Shown here: positions 250 to 41,883 of the stretch, piece by piece
Layout of the letters: each line of letters opens with the position of its first letter
Position numbering within the stretch: the stretch's first letter is position 1
Origin: a virus
Length of the DNA stretch: 41,883 nucleotides
Strand: one strand, 5' to 3'
Virus record (IMG/VR): IMGVR_UViG_3300036715_002244
Span: 1 to 41,883 of that record
Position numbers and translations under genes: made by a program
The notes under the pieces: model-generated
The model's input: only the letters and a program-made list of their open reading frames with translations
Told to the model about the DNA's origin: nothing
The model's database searches: none

Positions 250-804
250 ATGTTAATTAACGAAAGTTGCAACAATGAAATGGAAAGTGTAAAAGAAGAA
301 ATAAGAAAGATTAACGAAAGAGTTACGAGGCTTGAGGAGCTTAGTAACAAAAAGAAAGTGGAAATAGGAAAAATGAAAGTGATAAGCAAGAAGATTTGCG
401 GTTTGCCTATTAGGTGGATCGCATTAGCGAATGGCGCGAAATTATTTATCCCCTCACAGTTGGGGGATGAAATAGAATTCCCCTTATCTGGGTATGAAAT
501 TTCGTATATGGAAAATCTTTTTGATTATAGATTACAAACCAAAAGTGTCGCAAAAATTTATTTGTTCTGTAATTTAAAACTGGTTATAAGTTGTTATAAC
601 CAAATTATAAAACATGGTCCCATAAAGGTTGTCCACCTGGAGGGGAATGGCAGCTTGCTTTCGTACTGGGTTGGGGGGAATTTTGAAGAAAACGGGAATT
701 TACCTGTTGTCTTTAGAAGTAAGAAAGAAAATAAAAGGCTCCTGTGGTCACCCGATTGTGGGTTTCGCACAATTTCTTATAGGGATTTACAGTCCCTCAT
801 ATAA
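250..804 (+). CDS. Hypothetical early protein with N-terminal coiled coil
   Basis: 184 residues, function not recognised. It starts two bases after the preceding stop with an AAGAGGAGG site, so the genes are probably co-translated. Residues about 8-45 are charged and heptad-like (coiled coil); the remainder is a mixed, beta-rich domain with several aromatic residues. No catalytic motif was found. It sits in the early rightward transcript between the PEDF/WWL gene and the DUF1874-like gene. Confidence 0.7.
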   Translation: MLINESCNNEMESVKEEIRKINERVTRLEELSNKKKVEIGKMKVISKKICGLPIRWIALANGAKLFIPSQLGDEIEFPLSGYEISYMENLFDYRLQTKSVAKIYLFCNLKLVISCYNQIIKHGPIKVVHLEGNGSLLSYWVGGNFEENGNLPVVFRSKKENKRLLWSPDCGFRTISYRDLQSLI

Positions 805-822
805 AACAAAGGAGGTAACAAA

Positions 823-1137
823 ATGTTTAAAGCTATTCTAAGCACTACCGTCCTACCATTGGACGGCACTTATCAAGTCAAAACGCTTGATACTATTCCA
901 GATGTCAAGGGGGTGACTCACTTTATTGGTCATCCTGCAACCCGTGAGATTGTAGAGAACTTAGGAGCAGTTCCAACGCTCCAGAAGTTATTCAAAGGCT
1001 TGGAAGTGGGCGAGCAAGCCTTATGTTTTAGCATCAAGCAAGACCGAACAAATCGTAAAGACAACGGCTTTACGGCTCCGCATCAGGATGTGACCTTGTC
1101 TGATTTAAGTATCAGATTAATAACAAGAATAGAATAG
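823..1137 (+). CDS. DUF1874 / AcrIII-1-like protein (candidate anti-CRISPR ring nuclease)
   Basis: 104 residues. The plan fits the DUF1874 family (STIV B116, SIRV1 gp29, YddF of ICEBs1): an N-terminal strand, then an IGHPAT motif at residues 35-40 followed by a helix (REIVENLGAV), a G-containing strand (GEQALCFSI), and a C-terminal TLSDL helix ending ITRIE. In AcrIII-1 the His of IGHxxT (His47 in SIRV1 gp29) helps cleave cyclic tetra-adenylate, which silences type III CRISPR signalling; His37 corresponds here. The second catalytic residue, a Glu in gp29, is not clearly present because the region is longer (about residues 75-90). The site is GGAGGT before ATG. Family assignment is from remembered motifs, not a search. 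The gene also contains six simple hairpins of 5-8 bp. Confidence 0.6.
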   Translation: MFKAILSTTVLPLDGTYQVKTLDTIPDVKGVTHFIGHPATREIVENLGAVPTLQKLFKGLEVGEQALCFSIKQDRTNRKDNGFTAPHQDVTLSDLSIRLITRIE

Positions 1138-1148
1138 GAGGAGCTAAA

Positions 1149-1298
1149 ATGAATAAGATATTTGAACAGATGAACGAAGAGCTGGAAGAAGTCTGTCAGA
1201 ATTTGGATAGGTTGTCAGATGAGAAGTTTTTGTTTGACAATCCGAATTATTTTGAACGCTGGCAGAGACAACAAATAGACGATCCCCCACTGCAATAG
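1149..1298 (+). CDS. Small acidic early protein
   Basis: 49 residues, preceded by AGGAGGAG and starting 11 bases after the previous stop. It is acidic and helical (EELEEVCQNLDRL), with an aromatic C-terminal half. The last codons form the left arm of the terminator at 1282-1307, so coding sequence and terminator overlap. No function is recognised. Confidence 0.65.
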   Translation: MNKIFEQMNEELEEVCQNLDRLSDEKFLFDNPNYFERWQRQQIDDPPLQ

Positions 1299-1307
1299 TG
1301 GGGGGAT
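1282..1307 (+). terminator. Stem-loop overlapping end of the small acidic gene
   Basis: Arms ATCCCCCAC and GTGGGGGGAT pair with one extra G on the right, followed only by TTTGCTATATAATA, so it is a strong stem with a weak U-tract. It closes the cassette before 1337. Confidence 0.6.
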
Positions 1308-1581: not shown

Positions 1582-1635
1582 ATGGAAGGCAAGATAAAAA
1601 TAAAAGTTTTGGAGGATTATAAAAATGAAGATTGA
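1582..1635 (+). CDS. Possible 17-residue leader peptide overlapping the clamp start
   Basis: A short reading frame with an AAGGAAT site begins at ATG 1582, runs through the clamp ribosome binding site and stops 11 bases inside the clamp gene. Translating it would move ribosomes over the clamp start. Such a frame can arise by chance; the evidence is only the ribosome site and the overlap. Confidence 0.25.
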   Translation: MEGKIKIKVLEDYKNED

Positions 1636-2707
1636 GCTTAAAACGAAGGAACTAAACAAGATTATCCAGGATTTATCAAGAAACATCAAGAAGCACCCAG
1701 TAGAAACATTGAGAAGCATTCAAATATCAGCCAAAGATAAAAATATGATATTCAGAACTACAGATTTGGAAGCTGAGACTATTTATAATTTTGGCATTGA
1801 AGAAGATATAAACATAGAACCAATTCTTGTAGAATCAAGCGAGATATCAAGCTTAATTAAAAACTATCCAAGCGAGAATATCACATTAGAATTTGAGGAC
1901 GAAGAATTAAAAATAGAAGGAGAAAACATATCAGCAACAATACCAACAAAAAAAGATTCAAACTATCCAGAACAAATTGATATATCTGGAATAGAACCAA
2001 AAAAGATCTACTTCTCACTGATAAAACAAGCAATAGAAACAGTCGTCAACTCAAGCCCACAAGACGCAAATTCTAAAATGGGCGGGGTAAACATTAAGAC
2101 AAATGGCAAAGAGGTATCAATCGCAGCCACAGACGGCTTTAGACTGGCACTTTATAAAATGTATTTAGATGAAGAATTAGATATGAATTTTACTATATCT
2201 AAGAAGTGCGCACAGGAGATAATAAAATTTGATGTAGTATCGCTAATGTCATATCAAACAGATTCTCACTGGATACTGTCAACCAACGATAAAACAATTG
2301 CAGTTAAAAAACTTAATTATGAATATCCAAACTATGAGAAGGCTATCCCAACAGACAATAAACACAAGGTCGCTATTAATAGAGAAGACTTTATCAAGAA
2401 GCTATTGTTTGCATCGTCGCAGTCTGAATTGATAAAGCTAATCATAAAAGATAATGTTCTAACTGTGCAATCTTCAGACACAAGAATAAATACAAAAATA
2501 GATATTAGAACAGTGACAGAAGTTGCGGATATTGAATTCACATTCAAGTCACAATATTTAATTAGCGGGCTTAGGATTTTTGACACTGAAGATGTGCTAT
2601 TCACTTACAAAGATAACAATGATAAACCAATAACAATAGAAAATGAAGTCAAAACAGGTTATGTAAATATTCTTTATATAACAATGCCAACAAAACCAGA
2701 AAGATAG
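1625..2707 (+). CDS. dnaN: DNA polymerase III beta subunit-like sliding clamp (full length)
   Basis: 360 residues, the normal length of bacterial DnaN with three clamp domains of about 120 residues each. Recognisable parts are the domain I start, the junction SATIPTKKDSNYP, the domain II signature ATDGFRLALY (about residues 178-187) and PNYEKAIP before domain III. DnaN dimers encircle DNA and tether polymerases and repair enzymes. The start is fixed by TTGGAGGAT eight bases upstream. No polymerase gene is seen in the genome, so the clamp probably serves the host polymerase or recruits other phage enzymes. A shorter relative lies at 38095-38817. Confidence 0.9.
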   Translation: MKIELKTKELNKIIQDLSRNIKKHPVETLRSIQISAKDKNMIFRTTDLEAETIYNFGIEEDINIEPILVESSEISSLIKNYPSENITLEFEDEELKIEGENISATIPTKKDSNYPEQIDISGIEPKKIYFSLIKQAIETVVNSSPQDANSKMGGVNIKTNGKEVSIAATDGFRLALYKMYLDEELDMNFTISKKCAQEIIKFDVVSLMSYQTDSHWILSTNDKTIAVKKLNYEYPNYEKAIPTDNKHKVAINREDFIKKLLFASSQSELIKLIIKDNVLTVQSSDTRINTKIDIRTVTEVADIEFTFKSQYLISGLRIFDTEDVLFTYKDNNDKPITIENEVKTGYVNILYITMPTKPER

Positions 2708-11938: not shown

Positions 11939-14900
11939 TTAGAATTTGCCTGGATTTGCATTATGCAACAAATCTTTTAGCACACTGTCTTGTCTGGCTT
12001 GTTGCATAACTTGTTGTCTTAGCACTGGATTACTTGCCAATGCTGAGACATCTATATTATACACCGCTTTTATATATCTTTTATAAAGTGCCTTTTTTGC
12101 GTCTTTTTTAAATGCTCCACGCTCTGCCAATCCAAGATTTTTAAATGCATTTGCACTGCCATCAAGAAAACTATTAACCACTGAAGGCATAACACCTCGC
12201 CTTTTTTGTTCTGTTGTTGTGTTAGTCGCCCATATTGTATATAGCTCATCTAAGACTTGAGATGAAGTTCTTAGCCTTGCGCCCATCATAGTAAGCGCAA
12301 AAAGTTCTGCGTTAGTTATAGCATTAGACATCGGGTCCTTGCTTGTTGTGTATGGCAATAGTCTGGTAAAACTTGACCCAGCGATTGGAGTTCCAGCGAA
12401 TACAGTTGTGGAAATTAAAGTCCCTAATGGGTCAGTTTTTACGTGCTCACCTGCTTGCACAAACGGCTGAATAGGTAACCCTATCTTTGACATTATAAAC
12501 TTGCTCCAATCATCCCACGCTTCGATTACAGTTGCCCTCATCCCTCTTACAGGGTCGGTAGCCGTTGTATGAAAATATTTTATAGCAGCGTTAGCAAGCG
12601 GTAAAATACCTAAAAATTCTAATCCTTCAGTTTGGAATCCAAATATATCTAAATAGATTATTTTTCTTTCACGAGTTCCGTTTGGGGATGTCACAAGAAC
12701 AGGAATAGGAATTCTGCCTAAATCCTTAAGGTCGTGCGTTACTAAAAATCTATCAACAGTGCCTTGACCAGTAAAAGCAATACTAATCGAATTAGCTATT
12801 ATGCCTGCAGTTGCGGTGATACGAGGTATAAACATAGCAAATTCAGGCGTGCCGTCCATCATACGGGTTACGTGCTTAGTTAATGTCACATACCAGTCAG
12901 GAGCAAATGCTAATAGTCTGATAAGCGCGTTTGCCTCAGGACTAATCGAATGCCATATAGCTTGCCCGCCTATAGCGTCCTGAATTGTTGTTAGCTGCCT
13001 ATATATTTCTTCTGGTGATGCGCCTGCTTTTTCTCCTTTTTCAATAATCTGCCTTACCGCTCCGCCCTTTACTAATGGGACAAAATAATTCCATAATGCA
13101 TATTCCATATCGAATGTTAATGCTTTTGCGCCCTTGCCAAGCACTTTTGCAAAACCGCCCACTCCTGGCACTTTGCCTACAATACGTGCCATATCAGAGC
13201 CGCTGAATGACCTAACAACCTCTTGCAATAATTTAAGCTCTGCGACTTCTGCTGGAGCGTTCAAAAGAGACAAGATTTTTTGATCTTTTTCAAGTTCTGG
13301 ATGTTCCCTTAAAAAGTTAATATACACTTTTGCATTATTTGTATTTTGCTCTTTTACCCATTCTGCAGCATCTTTTTCCACAAAAGCGTGGTTTATCAAC
13401 CCCCCAAAGGTTTTTGCAGCTAACTTGCCGTGCTTTACTCCTAAAGCAGCACTCATTATAGCTCCAAAGTGAATAACTGAGAGGGTTAATTTGGTTGATT
13501 TTAATGCAGCATTACCCTTTGTAAACCCTTTAAGCGGGGCCAACACTTGTGGAGTTTCACCTCTTATTGACGAAAAAAGTCTGGAAACAAAATCAGCATA
13601 ATGTTTATCTATAAGTTTTGCTCCCTTACCAAAATTAATCTCTGTATAGTGGTTTTTTAACATTGTTTCGCCTGTAGCCCTTGTATAAATGTCATTAAGG
13701 TTATCTACAAAAAACTTTTTATCTGATACTGTTGGGTAAAAAAGAATTCTAATTCTTTGAATTATCCCTTTTACTTTTTCACCAACACTAAGGGCTGCCG
13801 CTCCTGGGTTCGTCGTCTTCTGTATGTCTGACACCATATAAACGCCATCTTTTAATATATTACCTTTTTCCATATAGTTTTCTACTGCTTTTCCAAAATC
13901 TCCTCCTGCAAGAATATTATTTGTAACGGCATCTTTCCCGCCTGCTTCTAAGTGCTCAAGCCAATTAGCAAAGTCCCATAGCAATGCTGGTTGTTGTATA
14001 CTAAAATTAACGGTTCTTTGAAGTCCCCAACCATTTTTGTATGATATGCCAGGGTCGTCGAGAATTCTTTCAAACATAGTTTTATAACGTCTCTCTTTTA
14101 ATTCATCTAAAGTAAAACTCATTAAAGAATTATCATATGTTTTTAACATATTATCAATCGAATCAAAACTGGCATTAACTCCAGGTGGCATTTCTATCTC
14201 GTTCGTCCCTTGTAAACTTGTTCTGGTAAGATATTCGCCTCCCTCACCTATTGAGCGTTTATATATCATTTTATTTGCAGTGGCTAATGTGTCTAAAATG
14301 TATTCTATCCCACTGCCATTAGCTTTCATTTCTTCTATTTTTTTCTTAAAAAAAGCACGCTCTCCTTCATTTTCTACATAAGATAGCGCTTTTTCTTCGT
14401 CGCCTGCTTTTAACGAATCATAAAATTCAGATGGCAAAGATTCTTTAAATCCCCTATACACATCATTAAACGGTATCCAATATTTGCTTAACTCTCCACT
14501 GTGAAGGTCAAGAAGGTCTTTATATTTTGTTAGAATGTTATTAACTGCTTTCTTTGCTTCTGGTGTGTTAAAAAATTCATAAATATATCTTTTACCTTTG
14601 TAGCTCATTTGCTCTTCTGGAATACCATTTTTTAGTTTTAGTATCAATTCATAGGTAGCGTGAGCCATTGGTTTTGTATCAAGCTTTTGCGCTATTGTTT
14701 CTGGACTGCCTTCTAACCCATCTTCAAGCCCTCGAATGAATGGGTTAACTTCGTGTTTTTCAATTTGTTCTTCGGTAAAGCCAAGTGCTTTAGCCGCTTC
14801 TTCGTTGCCTGCTATAATATAATCCGCAAATTTTGCAACACTTTTTGTCGCAGTCAAAAAATCAGGGTCTTTCATCAGATCAGGAAAGTCATATCCAACT

Positions 14901-15832
14901 ATTAATTTAGCTTCTTCTCTTTCGGCGTGAGACGATTTGTAAAGAGCGTTTACTGAACCATTAACAAGTTCAGGGCTAATAGGAGCCACAGTTTTTTGGA
15001 ACGCTTCAACCCCAGCCTTTATATATTGCCCCATCCAACCGCCAGTAAGGTTATCAACGGCATTAAAACCCTTAGAAATTGCAAACCCTAAGCCCTTAGC
15101 AGACTTTGAGATTGTAAAACCAAAGCCGTGCAAAACAATTGGAGTGATTATAAAAGTTCCTGCTGTATATAAAAATTGTTCTTCTGTTATTTTAGCTATG
15201 TTTATTGGCTCGTGTTCTATTGCTCTTGTCCCTACATCTACTCCTGTGCCAGCCAAAGACCAACTTATTATATCTTTTGCAGGGATTTCTAATTGACCAA
15301 GTCTGCCCATAGGGATATAAACACCTGAAGTAAATGTGTTGCCTATCGTTTTGCCTATTGCAGAACCGCCAATTTTTTCTAATATAGACGCAATCCCCTT
15401 CCCCACTATAGGCAATTCTGTGACTTTACTGCCTACTCTAGTAAAAACTGAGCCGATTGCACCCGCACCTATCATAGGTCCAATAACCTCTGCGGCAATC
15501 CCTGTAGCTGCCAATTGCGTTGCTGGATTCCACATATCATTTATGATTTCTTCTTGAGCGCTTGGTGTTGGCACATATCCTGTTTGCGACCAAATGCCTG
15601 TGTGAGCTGCATTTTTATCAGCTTGAATATTCTCTTCAGGCGTTCTCACCATCATATCTATAACAGGAACAATTGGAGACGGTGTATCATTAGATACTTG
15701 AGGTTGTATTAATGCAGCACTTTTAGAGACATCTTCTGTTTGTGTTTGTGAAGATTCTGGCTTCCCATATGCTGCTTCGTGAGCTTTTGCATCTTGCTCT
15801 TCTGTTGTGTGAAAATAATAAGGGCTATTCAT
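11939..15832 (-). CDS. Very large internal virion / DNA-ejection protein
   Basis: 1297 residues, the largest gene. The N-terminus has Pro/Gln-rich sequence, then glycine/alanine-rich hydrophobic stretches (about 100-240 and again around 800-830 and 1000-1040) and long helical regions; no enzymatic motif is apparent. Size, position after the transglycosylase gene and amphipathic composition fit the T7 gp16 type of ejection protein, which extends the tail across the cell envelope. The assignment rests on size and context, since these proteins diverge quickly. Confidence 0.7.
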   Translation of the reverse strand: MNSPYYFHTTEEQDAKAHEAAYGKPESSQTQTEDVSKSAALIQPQVSNDTPSPIVPVIDMMVRTPEENIQADKNAAHTGIWSQTGYVPTPSAQEEIINDMWNPATQLAATGIAAEVIGPMIGAGAIGSVFTRVGSKVTELPIVGKGIASILEKIGGSAIGKTIGNTFTSGVYIPMGRLGQLEIPAKDIISWSLAGTGVDVGTRAIEHEPINIAKITEEQFLYTAGTFIITPIVLHGFGFTISKSAKGLGFAISKGFNAVDNLTGGWMGQYIKAGVEAFQKTVAPISPELVNGSVNALYKSSHAEREEAKLIVGYDFPDLMKDPDFLTATKSVAKFADYIIAGNEEAAKALGFTEEQIEKHEVNPFIRGLEDGLEGSPETIAQKLDTKPMAHATYELILKLKNGIPEEQMSYKGKRYIYEFFNTPEAKKAVNNILTKYKDLLDLHSGELSKYWIPFNDVYRGFKESLPSEFYDSLKAGDEEKALSYVENEGERAFFKKKIEEMKANGSGIEYILDTLATANKMIYKRSIGEGGEYLTRTSLQGTNEIEMPPGVNASFDSIDNMLKTYDNSLMSFTLDELKERRYKTMFERILDDPGISYKNGWGLQRTVNFSIQQPALLWDFANWLEHLEAGGKDAVTNNILAGGDFGKAVENYMEKGNILKDGVYMVSDIQKTTNPGAAALSVGEKVKGIIQRIRILFYPTVSDKKFFVDNLNDIYTRATGETMLKNHYTEINFGKGAKLIDKHYADFVSRLFSSIRGETPQVLAPLKGFTKGNAALKSTKLTLSVIHFGAIMSAALGVKHGKLAAKTFGGLINHAFVEKDAAEWVKEQNTNNAKVYINFLREHPELEKDQKILSLLNAPAEVAELKLLQEVVRSFSGSDMARIVGKVPGVGGFAKVLGKGAKALTFDMEYALWNYFVPLVKGGAVRQIIEKGEKAGASPEEIYRQLTTIQDAIGGQAIWHSISPEANALIRLLAFAPDWYVTLTKHVTRMMDGTPEFAMFIPRITATAGIIANSISIAFTGQGTVDRFLVTHDLKDLGRIPIPVLVTSPNGTRERKIIYLDIFGFQTEGLEFLGILPLANAAIKYFHTTATDPVRGMRATVIEAWDDWSKFIMSKIGLPIQPFVQAGEHVKTDPLGTLISTTVFAGTPIAGSSFTRLLPYTTSKDPMSNAITNAELFALTMMGARLRTSSQVLDELYTIWATNTTTEQKRRGVMPSVVNSFLDGSANAFKNLGLAERGAFKKDAKKALYKRYIKAVYNIDVSALASNPVLRQQVMQQARQDSVLKDLLHNANPGKF

Positions 15833-33762: not shown

Positions 33763-34368
33763 TTATTTTTTATCATCAGTGTCATCACTTTTATCACGGA
33801 ACGGGCAGTAGCGTCCGCCGTCGCATACAAGCTGAACATTTTCCACTTTCGCTCCTAACGACAATAGATATTTATACAATTCATTATTCATATAATTACA
33901 AAAGAAACTTGTTTCATATAGATTAAGTTTCTCAGCGTCAACATCATCGAGATAAGCATAATTCAAATCAGCTTCAGCCAGATTGACTTTGAACAATGTT
34001 GCGCCACAAAGAATAGCCCCATACATATTGGCTCTTTCTAAAGTGCAAGTGTCTATGGTTGCGCCACGCATTTCACATTCACGGAAACTAGTATCACTTA
34101 AATCACAGTCAAAAAATTCTGCCTTATTAAGGATACTACATCTAAAATTAGCATAACAAAGATCACATTGGTCAAAGACTGCTTCGCTTAATCTCAACTC
34201 GCTTAAATCTGCTTTGATCATAGAACAACCCAAAAAGGTAGCTTCCCTTAAACTTACATTCTCAAACTTCACATAATCTAAATTCAATCCTATAAAAAGT
34301 CTTTGGTCTAAAATTGCACCAGGTTTTATATCTTCCGCACTTGCCCTTTGCAATCCAAAAATTCTCAC
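33763..34368 (-). CDS. Pentapeptide-repeat protein
   Basis: 201 residues. Repeats of the A(D/N/T)LXX type run from about 35 to 150 (for example ADLSELRLSEAVFDQ, ANFRCSILNKAEF, ANMYGAILCGATLF), forming a right-handed quadrilateral helix. Qnr and MfpA proteins of this fold mimic DNA and bind gyrase. A C-terminal tail (about 160-201) has CDGGRYCPF. Here it may protect or inhibit a host topoisomerase; unproven. Confidence 0.8.
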   Translation of the reverse strand: MRIFGLQRASAEDIKPGAILDQRLFIGLNLDYVKFENVSLREATFLGCSMIKADLSELRLSEAVFDQCDLCYANFRCSILNKAEFFDCDLSDTSFRECEMRGATIDTCTLERANMYGAILCGATLFKVNLAEADLNYAYLDDVDAEKLNLYETSFFCNYMNNELYKYLLSLGAKVENVQLVCDGGRYCPFRDKSDDTDDKK

Positions 34369-38094: not shown

Positions 38095-38817
38095 ATGGTA
38101 TTAGAAAAAACAGCAGTTGATGTAAGAATTTTAAAGCCCGTTAAAAGGGCTTTAAAAAAAGTAATTAAATTCAGTGATAAAAACACTGAAAAAAACATGC
38201 ATGGAGTAAATTTTAAAACGATTAACGATGAATTACTAGTTGCAACGACCGACGGTTTTAGACTTGTAATTTATACAATAGACATTAAACAAATACCTAA
38301 TTTAGAAATGAATTTTACAATTTCTATTAACGATGCTAGAAGGTTGTTAAAAGCTACAAAAATAATGGAATCATTTCAGACTGAATCTGAATTGGTTGTT
38401 ATTACTTCAGATTCAGAAATTAGATTAGCAAAAATTGAAAAACCTTACCCAAATTATTTAAAGGTGACTGAGCAAATAACCGACGACCTTCATTTTTCTT
38501 TTATGGTTGATAGAAAAAAGCTTTTAGATACTATTATCAAGTTTAAAGATACTAATTTGATTGAAGTATCTTTAAAAGATAATGCACTATATATTGAATC
38601 AGAAAAAGTTTATATAACAGCAACGACCGTTAAAGATTTTAATATTGAAATAAGACCTTCATTTTTAATTGAAGGTTTAAAACTATTTGATGATGAATTA
38701 ATTTATTTTTCTTATAAAAAAACTAGTAAATATTCTAATCATTATTTAATAGTGATGAATAACAGTGATATGTTTACTGATTATGAATGGATCCATTATT
38801 TTACAGCTTCTAAATAG
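38095..38817 (+). CDS. Two-domain sliding-clamp homologue (lacks DnaN domain I)
   Basis: 240 residues. It aligns with the full clamp (1625-2707) from domain II onward: KNMHGVNFKT against SKMGGVNIKT, TTDGFRLVIY against ATDGFRLALY, LEMNFTIS against LDMNFTIS, KPYPNYLK against YEYPNYEK, and a matching C-terminal block (IEGLKLFDDELIYFSYK against ISGLRIFDTEDVLFTYK). Domain I is absent, and a GGAGTG site just upstream of a normal ATG indicates a real start. Two-domain subunits could build a six-domain ring as trimers, as PCNA and T4 gp45 do. It is AT-rich, unlike the next two genes. Confidence 0.85.
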   Translation: MVLEKTAVDVRILKPVKRALKKVIKFSDKNTEKNMHGVNFKTINDELLVATTDGFRLVIYTIDIKQIPNLEMNFTISINDARRLLKATKIMESFQTESELVVITSDSEIRLAKIEKPYPNYLKVTEQITDDLHFSFMVDRKKLLDTIIKFKDTNLIEVSLKDNALYIESEKVYITATTVKDFNIEIRPSFLIEGLKLFDDELIYFSYKKTSKYSNHYLIVMNNSDMFTDYEWIHYFTASK

Positions 38818-40544: not shown

Positions 40545-40740
40545 TTGACAATTGCATATTATAAAAGTATTTAAATATTTAAATATATTTTATAAAAATA
40601 TAATAATATTTAAATATATTTATCAAGTTCAAAATACCGTCCAGGAGCATATAAAACTTCATATATCGAATGTGGGCGAACGTGGGTAAAATGTGGGCAT
40701 TAATAGATTTTATGGATTGATAAATAACGTTTTGTTGACA
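40545..40740 (+). repeat. Promoter cassette repeat, copy B
   Basis: Second copy of 38895-39094. It begins GCTCTTTGACAATTG, the best boxA match in the genome (start at 40540), then the ATTTAAATAT stretch, CGTCCAGGAGCATATAAAAC, three GTGGG motifs and TTGACA. Confidence 0.9.
40672..40697 (+). promoter_or_regulatory. Phased GTGGG triplet, copy B
   Basis: GTGGG at 40672, 40682 and 40693: the same 10/11 spacing and the same 38-base distance to the -35 as copy A. Confidence 0.6.
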
Positions 40741-40762
40741 AGTAATTTAAACACGCTATAAT
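40735..40762 (+). promoter_or_regulatory. Promoter P4
   Basis: TTGACA, 16 bases, TATAAT; 34 bases before the ATG at 40797. The spacer differs from copy A, but position relative to the GTGGG sites is kept. Confidence 0.75.
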
Positions 40763-41481: not shown

Positions 41482-41772
41482 ATTAAAGAATTGTTACAAC
41501 AATTAGTAAACAAGATGAACGAAGGCTTTTTAGATTCGTTCTATCTTGAGCTTAATCCTGATAAAGATGTCTATTTTGCACAAATATTTGTGCACATAAA
41601 AGGGCACTTTACAAAAAAAAGCAAAGTAGTTGTAACAATAGCCACTTACACAAAAAGTGGACAGGTTATAAGGTATAGCCAGAACGATAAAAAGTTCTGG
41701 GAGTATATCAATGCTTATTCTTCTGAGATAAAAAAATATCTTAGAGGAGAGAGAAGCTGGCAATTAAAATAA
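41482..41772 (+). CDS. Small early protein, YSxxDKKF family, copy 2, unusual start
   Basis: About 96 residues if started at ATT 41482, the codon seven bases after AGGAGG, where all sister genes have ATG. The next options are TTG 41491 (16 bases from the site) and ATG 41515, both too far. Paralogue of 40181-40462 through the YS(Q/S)xDKKF block. Its stop is just before the ribosome site of the 35-247 gene on the circle. Unknown function. Confidence 0.62.
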   Translation: MKELLQQLVNKMNEGFLDSFYLELNPDKDVYFAQIFVHIKGHFTKKSKVVVTIATYTKSGQVIRYSQNDKKFWEYINAYSSEIKKYLRGERSWQLK

Positions 41773-41883
41773 AAGGAGGCGATAAGAAAAATGAAAGTTC
41801 TGATAAGGGAATATCTTTTTTCTTTGGAGTATACAGTCCCTGAAGATTTTCCTAAGGTAGTATCGAAATTTGCAATACAACCT
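41757..41883. repeat. Terminal overlap, right copy
   Basis: Identical to bases 1-127; see the left copy. Confidence 0.95.
41791..41883 (+). CDS. Partial duplicate view of the PEDF/WWL gene
   Basis: The first 31 codons of the gene at 35-247, cut by the window end. It is the same gene on the circular genome, not a second copy. Confidence 0.9.
   Translation, partial: MKVLIREYLFSLEYTVPEDFPKVVSKFAIQP

Follow-up and report, generated by a model that had tools for sequence, protein, structure and literature searches.

A distant DUF1874-like candidate ring nuclease with a conserved histidine and a partly rebuilt active site in a tailed phage genome

The closest described systems to the locus considered here are the AcrIII-1/Crn2 ring nucleases, proteins of the DUF1874 kind. 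Changes of their catalytic histidine have been described: the H47A variant of SIRV1 gp29 is termed inactive in a passage of PMC7213978, and in the Marinitoga Csx1-Crn2 protein, a fusion of the Crn2 domain with a type III effector, the H495A change abolished cA4 cleavage, as passages of PMC7293037 state. The AcrIII-1 protein of Thermoanaerobacterium phage THSA-485A is a phage ring nuclease which, according to a passage of PMC7371418, abolished cA4-mediated immunity in a plasmid assay. A passage of PMC12409355 gives AcrIII-1 in 36 of 28,114 surveyed phage genomes. The native anti-CRISPR role of AcrIII-1 has been challenged by the claim that the protein, when natively expressed, does not act as an anti-CRISPR (Nature 2025 640:E8, with a reply at E15), and passages of PMC12751052 and PMC13131331 comment on the dispute. 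AcrIII-2 resembles the present candidate in its proposed role alone, the viral destruction of cA4, whereas its fold is different: it has a SAVED domain and not DUF1874, as described in a section of PMC12751052.

The window, by which we mean the whole stretch of viral DNA analysed (IMG/VR record IMGVR_UViG_3300036715_002244, 41,883 nucleotides), begins and ends with the same 127 bases. Given this exact direct terminal repeat (1-127 and 41757-41883), the record probably represents a whole phage genome, either circular or terminally redundant. The virus is a tailed phage, since portal, terminase, capsid, Erf, helicase and RecE/Cas4-like genes are present in the window. The terminase has remote relatives, with 33% identity to that of Hydrogenobaculum phage 1; no phage relatives of the capsid were found, and a megablast search with bases 1-25000 gave no matches. 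Two other proteins of this genome may be mentioned: a pentapeptide-repeat protein (33763-34368, minus strand; 72.7 bits to PF00805) and a protein of 1297 residues in the structural gene block (11939-15832, minus strand) for which Pfam gave no match at E <= 0.01.

An earlier note, made from the letters of the DNA, had proposed that one short ORF of this genome encodes an AcrIII-1 ring nuclease directed against type III CRISPR. The ORF itself is real: it lies on the plus strand, starts with ATG, is preceded by a ribosome-binding site and has full-length relatives elsewhere (Table 1). It belongs to a run of small plus-strand ORFs that starts with 35-247, continues through the three ORFs listed in Table 1 and is closed by a terminator-like hairpin; four terminator-like sites were found in positions 1-2800 against 1.6 expected. 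The next large gene after this run codes for a DnaN-like clamp (1625-2707, plus strand). The small ORFs neighbouring the candidate had no family match above cut-off, and no cas genes lie around it. The note had also read the early position of the gene as a sign of counter-defence. This argument is weak, because the terminal repeat makes the start of the window an arbitrary cut, and position 823, counted from that cut, is uninformative about the time of expression.

Table 1. Features of the candidate gene and of its surroundings, in window coordinates
Feature	Position	Strand	Basis or remark
Candidate ring nuclease gene, DUF1874-like, 104 aa	823..1137	+	ATG-start ORF; relatives; profile-profile DUF1874 match; AlphaFold2 model and fold match
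Ribosome-binding site GGAGG, 7 bases 5' of the ATG	811..815	+	Direct sequence reading
N-terminal motif LSTTVLPLDG, residues 6-15, kept across the family	838..867	+	Alignment
H33-x-I-G-H37-P-x motif, residues 33-39	919..939	+	H37 on catalytic His47 of SIRV1 gp29; H33 family-specific
Rebuilt active-site loop DRTNRKDNGFTAPHQ, residues 74-88	1042..1086	+	Four-residue insertion; R78 on gp29 R85, N81 on gp29 E88; D80 is the nearest acid
Upstream ORF, 184 aa, 3' end 18 bases 5' of the candidate gene	250..804	+	No family match above cut-off
Downstream ORF, 49 aa, own GGAGG	1149..1298	+	No family match above cut-off
Terminator-like hairpin with weak T tail, ATTTGCTATA	1283..1305	+	Closes the run of small genes

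Several observations concern the neighbourhood in a wider sense. A second DnaN-like sliding-clamp gene is present at 38095-38817 (plus strand); the two clamps are 32% identical over 217 aligned columns, and this second one has no N-terminal part. The small ORFs 35-247 and 1337-1567, both on the plus strand, are paralogous (42% over 52 columns, with VPEDF..WWL in common), flank the candidate gene and had no family match above cut-off. A perfect promoter match, TTGACA-16-TATAAT (12/12), is located at 40735-40762 on the plus strand and precedes a series of small orphan ORFs that continues across the terminal repeat. We considered this promoter as the driver of the candidate gene; such a role is doubtful, as hairpins are visible in between.

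How widely is the gene distributed? Besides the window we detected 22 further loci that encode the family, namely in two phages of thermophiles, 16 IMG/VR contigs (one of them with a broken gene), three MAG contigs and one bacterial genome, which gives 23 places in total. A tblastn search of 50,697 phage records returned two relatives, both aligned over at least 97% of the query: one in Moorella phage MTATph1 (62.9% identity, E 3e-37) and one in Parageobacillus phage JGon-2020a (62.6% identity, E 5e-38). Alignment-based scans gave 17 viral contigs, of which 16 belong to the family, with several nearly identical pairs among them, and the 17th (L033) codes for a canonical DUF1874 protein. Bacterial assemblies yielded three relatives and a further one in genome G285, where it is carried on a 3.1-Mb contig. 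A sample of 398 genomes from one phylum held the family in two genomes, G285 and the already known genome of locus L018; the third match in this sample, G322, is a canonical DUF1874 protein. When a single protein was used to scan viral or genome contigs, no relatives came up. Among the 21 loci compared for conserved neighbourhood, the window included, no neighbour recurred beyond the gene itself and its antisense frames, and so the gene travels alone.

Some members depart from the usual form. In the broken copy (L032:3876-4104) the IGHP segment, and with it the catalytic histidine, has been lost through a deletion and a frame shift. Two possible fusions were seen, one with a zinc-ribbon-like CxxC..CxxC tail at the C-terminal end (L018:8001-8378) and one with a Cys-rich N-terminal extension (L015:4954-5559, also in L016). 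The alignment used for counting leaves out this broken copy as well as L012, L016/L031, L017 and L029, which are copies or near copies of L011, L015, L005 and L030.

At the level of single sequences the relation to DUF1874 is faint. Pfam PF08960 scores the window protein with 12.6 bits (E = 0.15), below its gathering cut-off of 26, and at E <= 1 it matches only two of 18 family members, so by this cut-off the protein is not counted in this Pfam family. PHROGs and NCBIfam had no match to the window protein, PADLOC had none to three family members (the P0001, L003 and L036 proteins), and a phmmer search with the window protein gave no DUF1874 chain. Thus none of the four profile libraries tried matches the family significantly, and it is a previously unprofiled branch. 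Among the papers that the literature searches listed, none was on this DUF1874-like family. As to names, the PADLOC model PDLC01147, 'Csx16', matches the canonical DUF1874 proteins L033:10001-10318 (87 bits) and L043:1474-1812 (52 bits), and this name overlaps with the Crn2/AcrIII-1 name.

The comparison of profiles gave strong evidence. Aligned with hhalign, the 18 family rows matched 11 canonical DUF1874 sequences over 101 columns with a score of 72.1 and a probability of 97.8%, whereas the highest score among 60 column-shuffled controls was 17.6, and the reversed alignment scored 9.6. The check by HHpred/Pfam that had been suggested for DUF1874 is split: the PF08960 score is insignificant, and the profile-profile match stands far above its controls. 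The family profile also finds the canonical protein of G322 at E = 0.0044, a locus that PF08960 itself finds at 7.8e-29. A bridge is provided by L033, which is canonical by PF08960 (98 bits), yet has a family-like NTTVLPNDGLYQMKT start and, over 80 columns, shares 38% identity with the window protein. Against the PDB the 18-row family profile found no DUF1874 chain up to E = 10; a three-row profile reached AFV3-109 at E = 0.42, the sole DUF1874 chain seen by sequence. In the maximum-likelihood tree a branch with 100/100 support sets the 18 family rows apart. PF08960 had no match at E <= 1 in any of the 12 carrier records; mutual exclusion would fit this, but the base rate is low (10/398). On the profile evidence these proteins are homologous to the DUF1874 superfamily in the wide sense.

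The second level of comparison was structural. An AlphaFold2 model of the window protein, built from 15 family rows with no canonical members, had pLDDT 88.9 and pTM 0.79. In the Foldseek search of the PDB, ranks 1-16 were all DUF1874 entries (8y7f, 8y7g, 2j6b, 2x4i, 6scf and 2j85) with probability of at least 0.96, followed at rank 17 by a methyltransferase with probability 0.18. The best VIA-align match was the cA4-bound Csx1-Crn2 of Marinitoga (Z 9.1, 2.7 A, 98 residues; PDB 8Y7G), and its counterpart 8Y7F gave Z 8.4, 2.9 A over 93 residues; the IGH histidine of this Crn2 domain is aligned with H37, and in contrast to the fused domain the window protein is a free-standing phage protein. The alignment with SIRV1 gp29 that the earlier note had asked for agrees with its proposal (6SCF; Z 8.7, 2.9 A, 96 residues; 2X4I at Z 7.3), at an identity of 10-11% in the structural alignments. 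AFV3-109 (2J6B; Z 8.6, 2.9 A, 95 residues) has the top identity among the stand-alone solved members, 22%. The remaining DUF1874 entries, 2X4I among them, gave Z 7.3, 6.2 and 5.6, and the first unrelated chain Z 2.3. In a viral structure library the THSA-485A protein ranked third, with TM 0.63 but 12% identity in the structural alignment.

As a yardstick we modelled the canonical L033 protein (three rows, pLDDT 86.1; two of five models good). It reached Z 12.8-14.1 to the same entries and 9.2 for 8y6z. Judged by these models, the window protein has the DUF1874 fold but is clearly more distant from the solved structures than L033. Compared with the L033 model it is without the helix before the IGH strand and without the helix after the active-site loop, and a short helix at 78-81 is predicted instead; the rebuilt loop is the part of the model with the lowest confidence (pLDDT 69 for residues 81-90). 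The DUF1874 fold, catalytic histidine and C-terminal layout that had been read from the sequence are thus borne out together by the profile-profile match, by L033 as a bridge and by the structure comparison.

If the family has diverged so far, then which residues of the active site has it kept? They were counted in an alignment that combined the 18 family rows with 15 canonical ones. The IGHPAT motif lies at residues 35-40 and is followed by a predicted helix at 38-46, as had been proposed. H37 is invariant in the family (18/18), stands in an invariant G-H-P-x-T context and is aligned with the catalytic histidine of SIRV1 gp29 (H47) and of the Crn2 domain (H495); 14 of the 15 canonical rows have His in this column. 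Other active-site residues of AcrIII-1/Crn2 we take to be R85 and E88 of gp29, in the R-x-x-E-G loop, and R66, in the Asn-Arg pair before the fourth strand. The loop arginine is kept: R78 is found in all 18 family rows and falls on the canonical Arg (15/15). Four residues (74-77) are inserted before it in comparison with canonical DUF1874, and the segment 79-90 after it is rebuilt, which agrees with the insertion that had been noticed near residues 75-90. The same register of the loop was given by hhalign and MAFFT.

The glutamate is a different matter. The canonical rows have Glu in 14 cases and Asp in one, while at the corresponding position 81 the family has Asp in seven rows, Glu in five, Asn in three (window included), Gln in two and Lys in one. 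The remark that the catalytic Glu was not obvious was right in that the canonical Glu is absent; it is not hidden by the insertion, however, since Asn81 takes its place with Asp80 beside it. An acid is present at position 80 or 81 in 17 of the 18 rows (the exception is L014), and Asp80 might stand in for the canonical Glu. Before the fourth strand the window protein has Gln54-Lys55 versus Asn-Arg; Lys at 55 is found in 15 of 18 family rows in a count by eye from the alignment.

In exchange the family has invariants of its own that are mostly different in canonical rows: H33 (18/18 versus 0/15), P38, E45, G48, A49, F57, G59, L60 and R98; Q88 is present in 17 of 18 rows. With SIRV1 gp29 the window protein shares the IGH motif with its catalytic His, the loop Arg, a polar position three residues on and then a Gly; it differs in the insertion before the Arg, in Asn for Glu88, in a shorter region before the His and in the H33 and E45 that are invariant in its family. 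The loop of AFV3-109 is a canonical RLPEG, in contrast to RKDNG after the insertion here. We have not filed the protein as AcrIII-1 or as a PF08960 member, because the Pfam score is under the cut-off and both the loop Glu and the Asn-Arg pair are missing. The kind of protein had been recognised correctly, as DUF1874; the narrower identity was not upheld, given also the separate clade and the 18-row PDB profile search that gave no DUF1874 chain. The evidence fits a divergent sister branch of the DUF1874 ring nucleases, and the label 'AcrIII-1' exceeds it.

For the host side we limited our reading to gene-by-gene inspection of two carriers. Genome G285 has two type III loci, one of type III-A (Csm1, Csm6 and a CRISPR array of 18 repeats) and one of type III-B (Cmr2 and a CARF protein); genome G003 has a type III-B locus with Card1-like and NE0113-type CARF proteins. 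Since these type III loci include CARF-domain proteins, both carriers have genes of cyclic-oligoadenylate signalling. In G285, a single contig of 3.10 Mb, the family gene is located at 2.956 Mb near a tyrosine integrase, and the Cas10 genes at 0.21 and 0.98 Mb, so that it lies neither in nor beside a type III locus, where a Crn2 of the host type would be expected. A broader host link by Cas10 palm hits was tried and rejected: three of four carriers had hits over the cut-off against a background of 137/398 genomes of the same phylum (P for at least three of four about 0.12), and the E. coli control also passed, so the weak matches are probably other cyclases. About 6.5 kb from the family gene of G285, the region L048:16639-18865 shows Csf1 and Csf3 matches below cut-off (type IV CRISPR) as well as a Cas6 that scores above its Pfam cut-off (46.9 versus 25 bits), with the tyrosine integrase nearby; a mobile element of G285 possibly combines a type IV system with the ring-nuclease relative.

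What could be the function of such a protein? In our opinion it is probably a divergent DUF1874 (AcrIII-1/Crn2) ring nuclease, acting most likely on cA4 and lowering type III signalling during infection. By analogy with the solved members it would be a homodimer, with a cyclic oligoadenylate, probably cA4, bound between its subunits. His37 would serve as the general acid while the 2'-OH of the ribose attacks the neighbouring phosphodiester, Arg78 would lie on the phosphate, and an acid of the rebuilt loop (Asp80 here, Asp or Glu81 in most relatives) would replace the canonical Glu. Degradation of the alarm molecule would keep type III effectors of the Csm6, Csx1 and Can2 kind off during phage replication.

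The main competing idea, to which we give perhaps a fifth or slightly more of our belief, is that the fold and the histidine were kept and the ligand was changed, the protein cleaving or sequestering another cyclic nucleotide such as cA3, cA5, cA6 or a CBASS or Thoeris signal. It is favoured by the family-specific residues around the His and in the C-terminal half (H33, P38, E45, R98 and the near-invariant Q88), by the four-residue insertion and the missing helix before the His, by the clade separated at 100/100 support and by the canonical Glu that was not kept. The type III-A locus of G285 moreover encodes Csm6, and activation by cA6 is also known in this effector family. The retained His, Arg and adjacent acid argue against it, as does the fact that the nearest solved relatives bind cA4. 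A more specific form, in which an unprofiled DUF1874-fold branch of phages of often thermophilic Bacillota acts through its rebuilt loop on a signal other than cA4, seems to us possible at about the same low level or a little lower. It is unlikely that the fold has left cyclic-nucleotide chemistry altogether for some other use, such as nucleic-acid binding or regulation; the canonical Glu missing from the window protein and the published dispute over the native role of AcrIII-1 would suit such a use, but a His kept in 18 of 18 rows within an invariant motif is what one expects of an active site under selection. The four relatives in bacterial assemblies could suggest a Crn2 of the cellular type, which would reset type III signalling as a regulator of the host and have phages as mere carriers. 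We regard this as very improbable, with 18 of the 22 other places being phage or viral contigs and the G285 gene close to an integrase and far from the Cas10 genes. Finally, the weak Pfam score might be ascribed to a spurious ORF or a chance motif, an explanation that is practically worthless and is refuted by the full-length relatives in unrelated genomes, the ribosome-binding site and the invariant residues.

The AcrIII-1/Crn2 enzymes are known; what is new here is a distant cousin in which the key histidine is kept and the active site is partly rebuilt. Viral ring nucleases are surveyed by means of sequence profiles, and a branch that is missed by PF08960 and by the PHROGs, NCBIfam and PADLOC models may escape such counts. 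Its close relatives in Moorella and Parageobacillus phages offer named hosts where the question of function is testable. The family is also a natural experiment on catalysis, with His and Arg fixed and Glu free to move. If its members are active, they tell us which active-site part is important; if their ligand differs, the range of alarms silenced by the DUF1874 fold would be wider.
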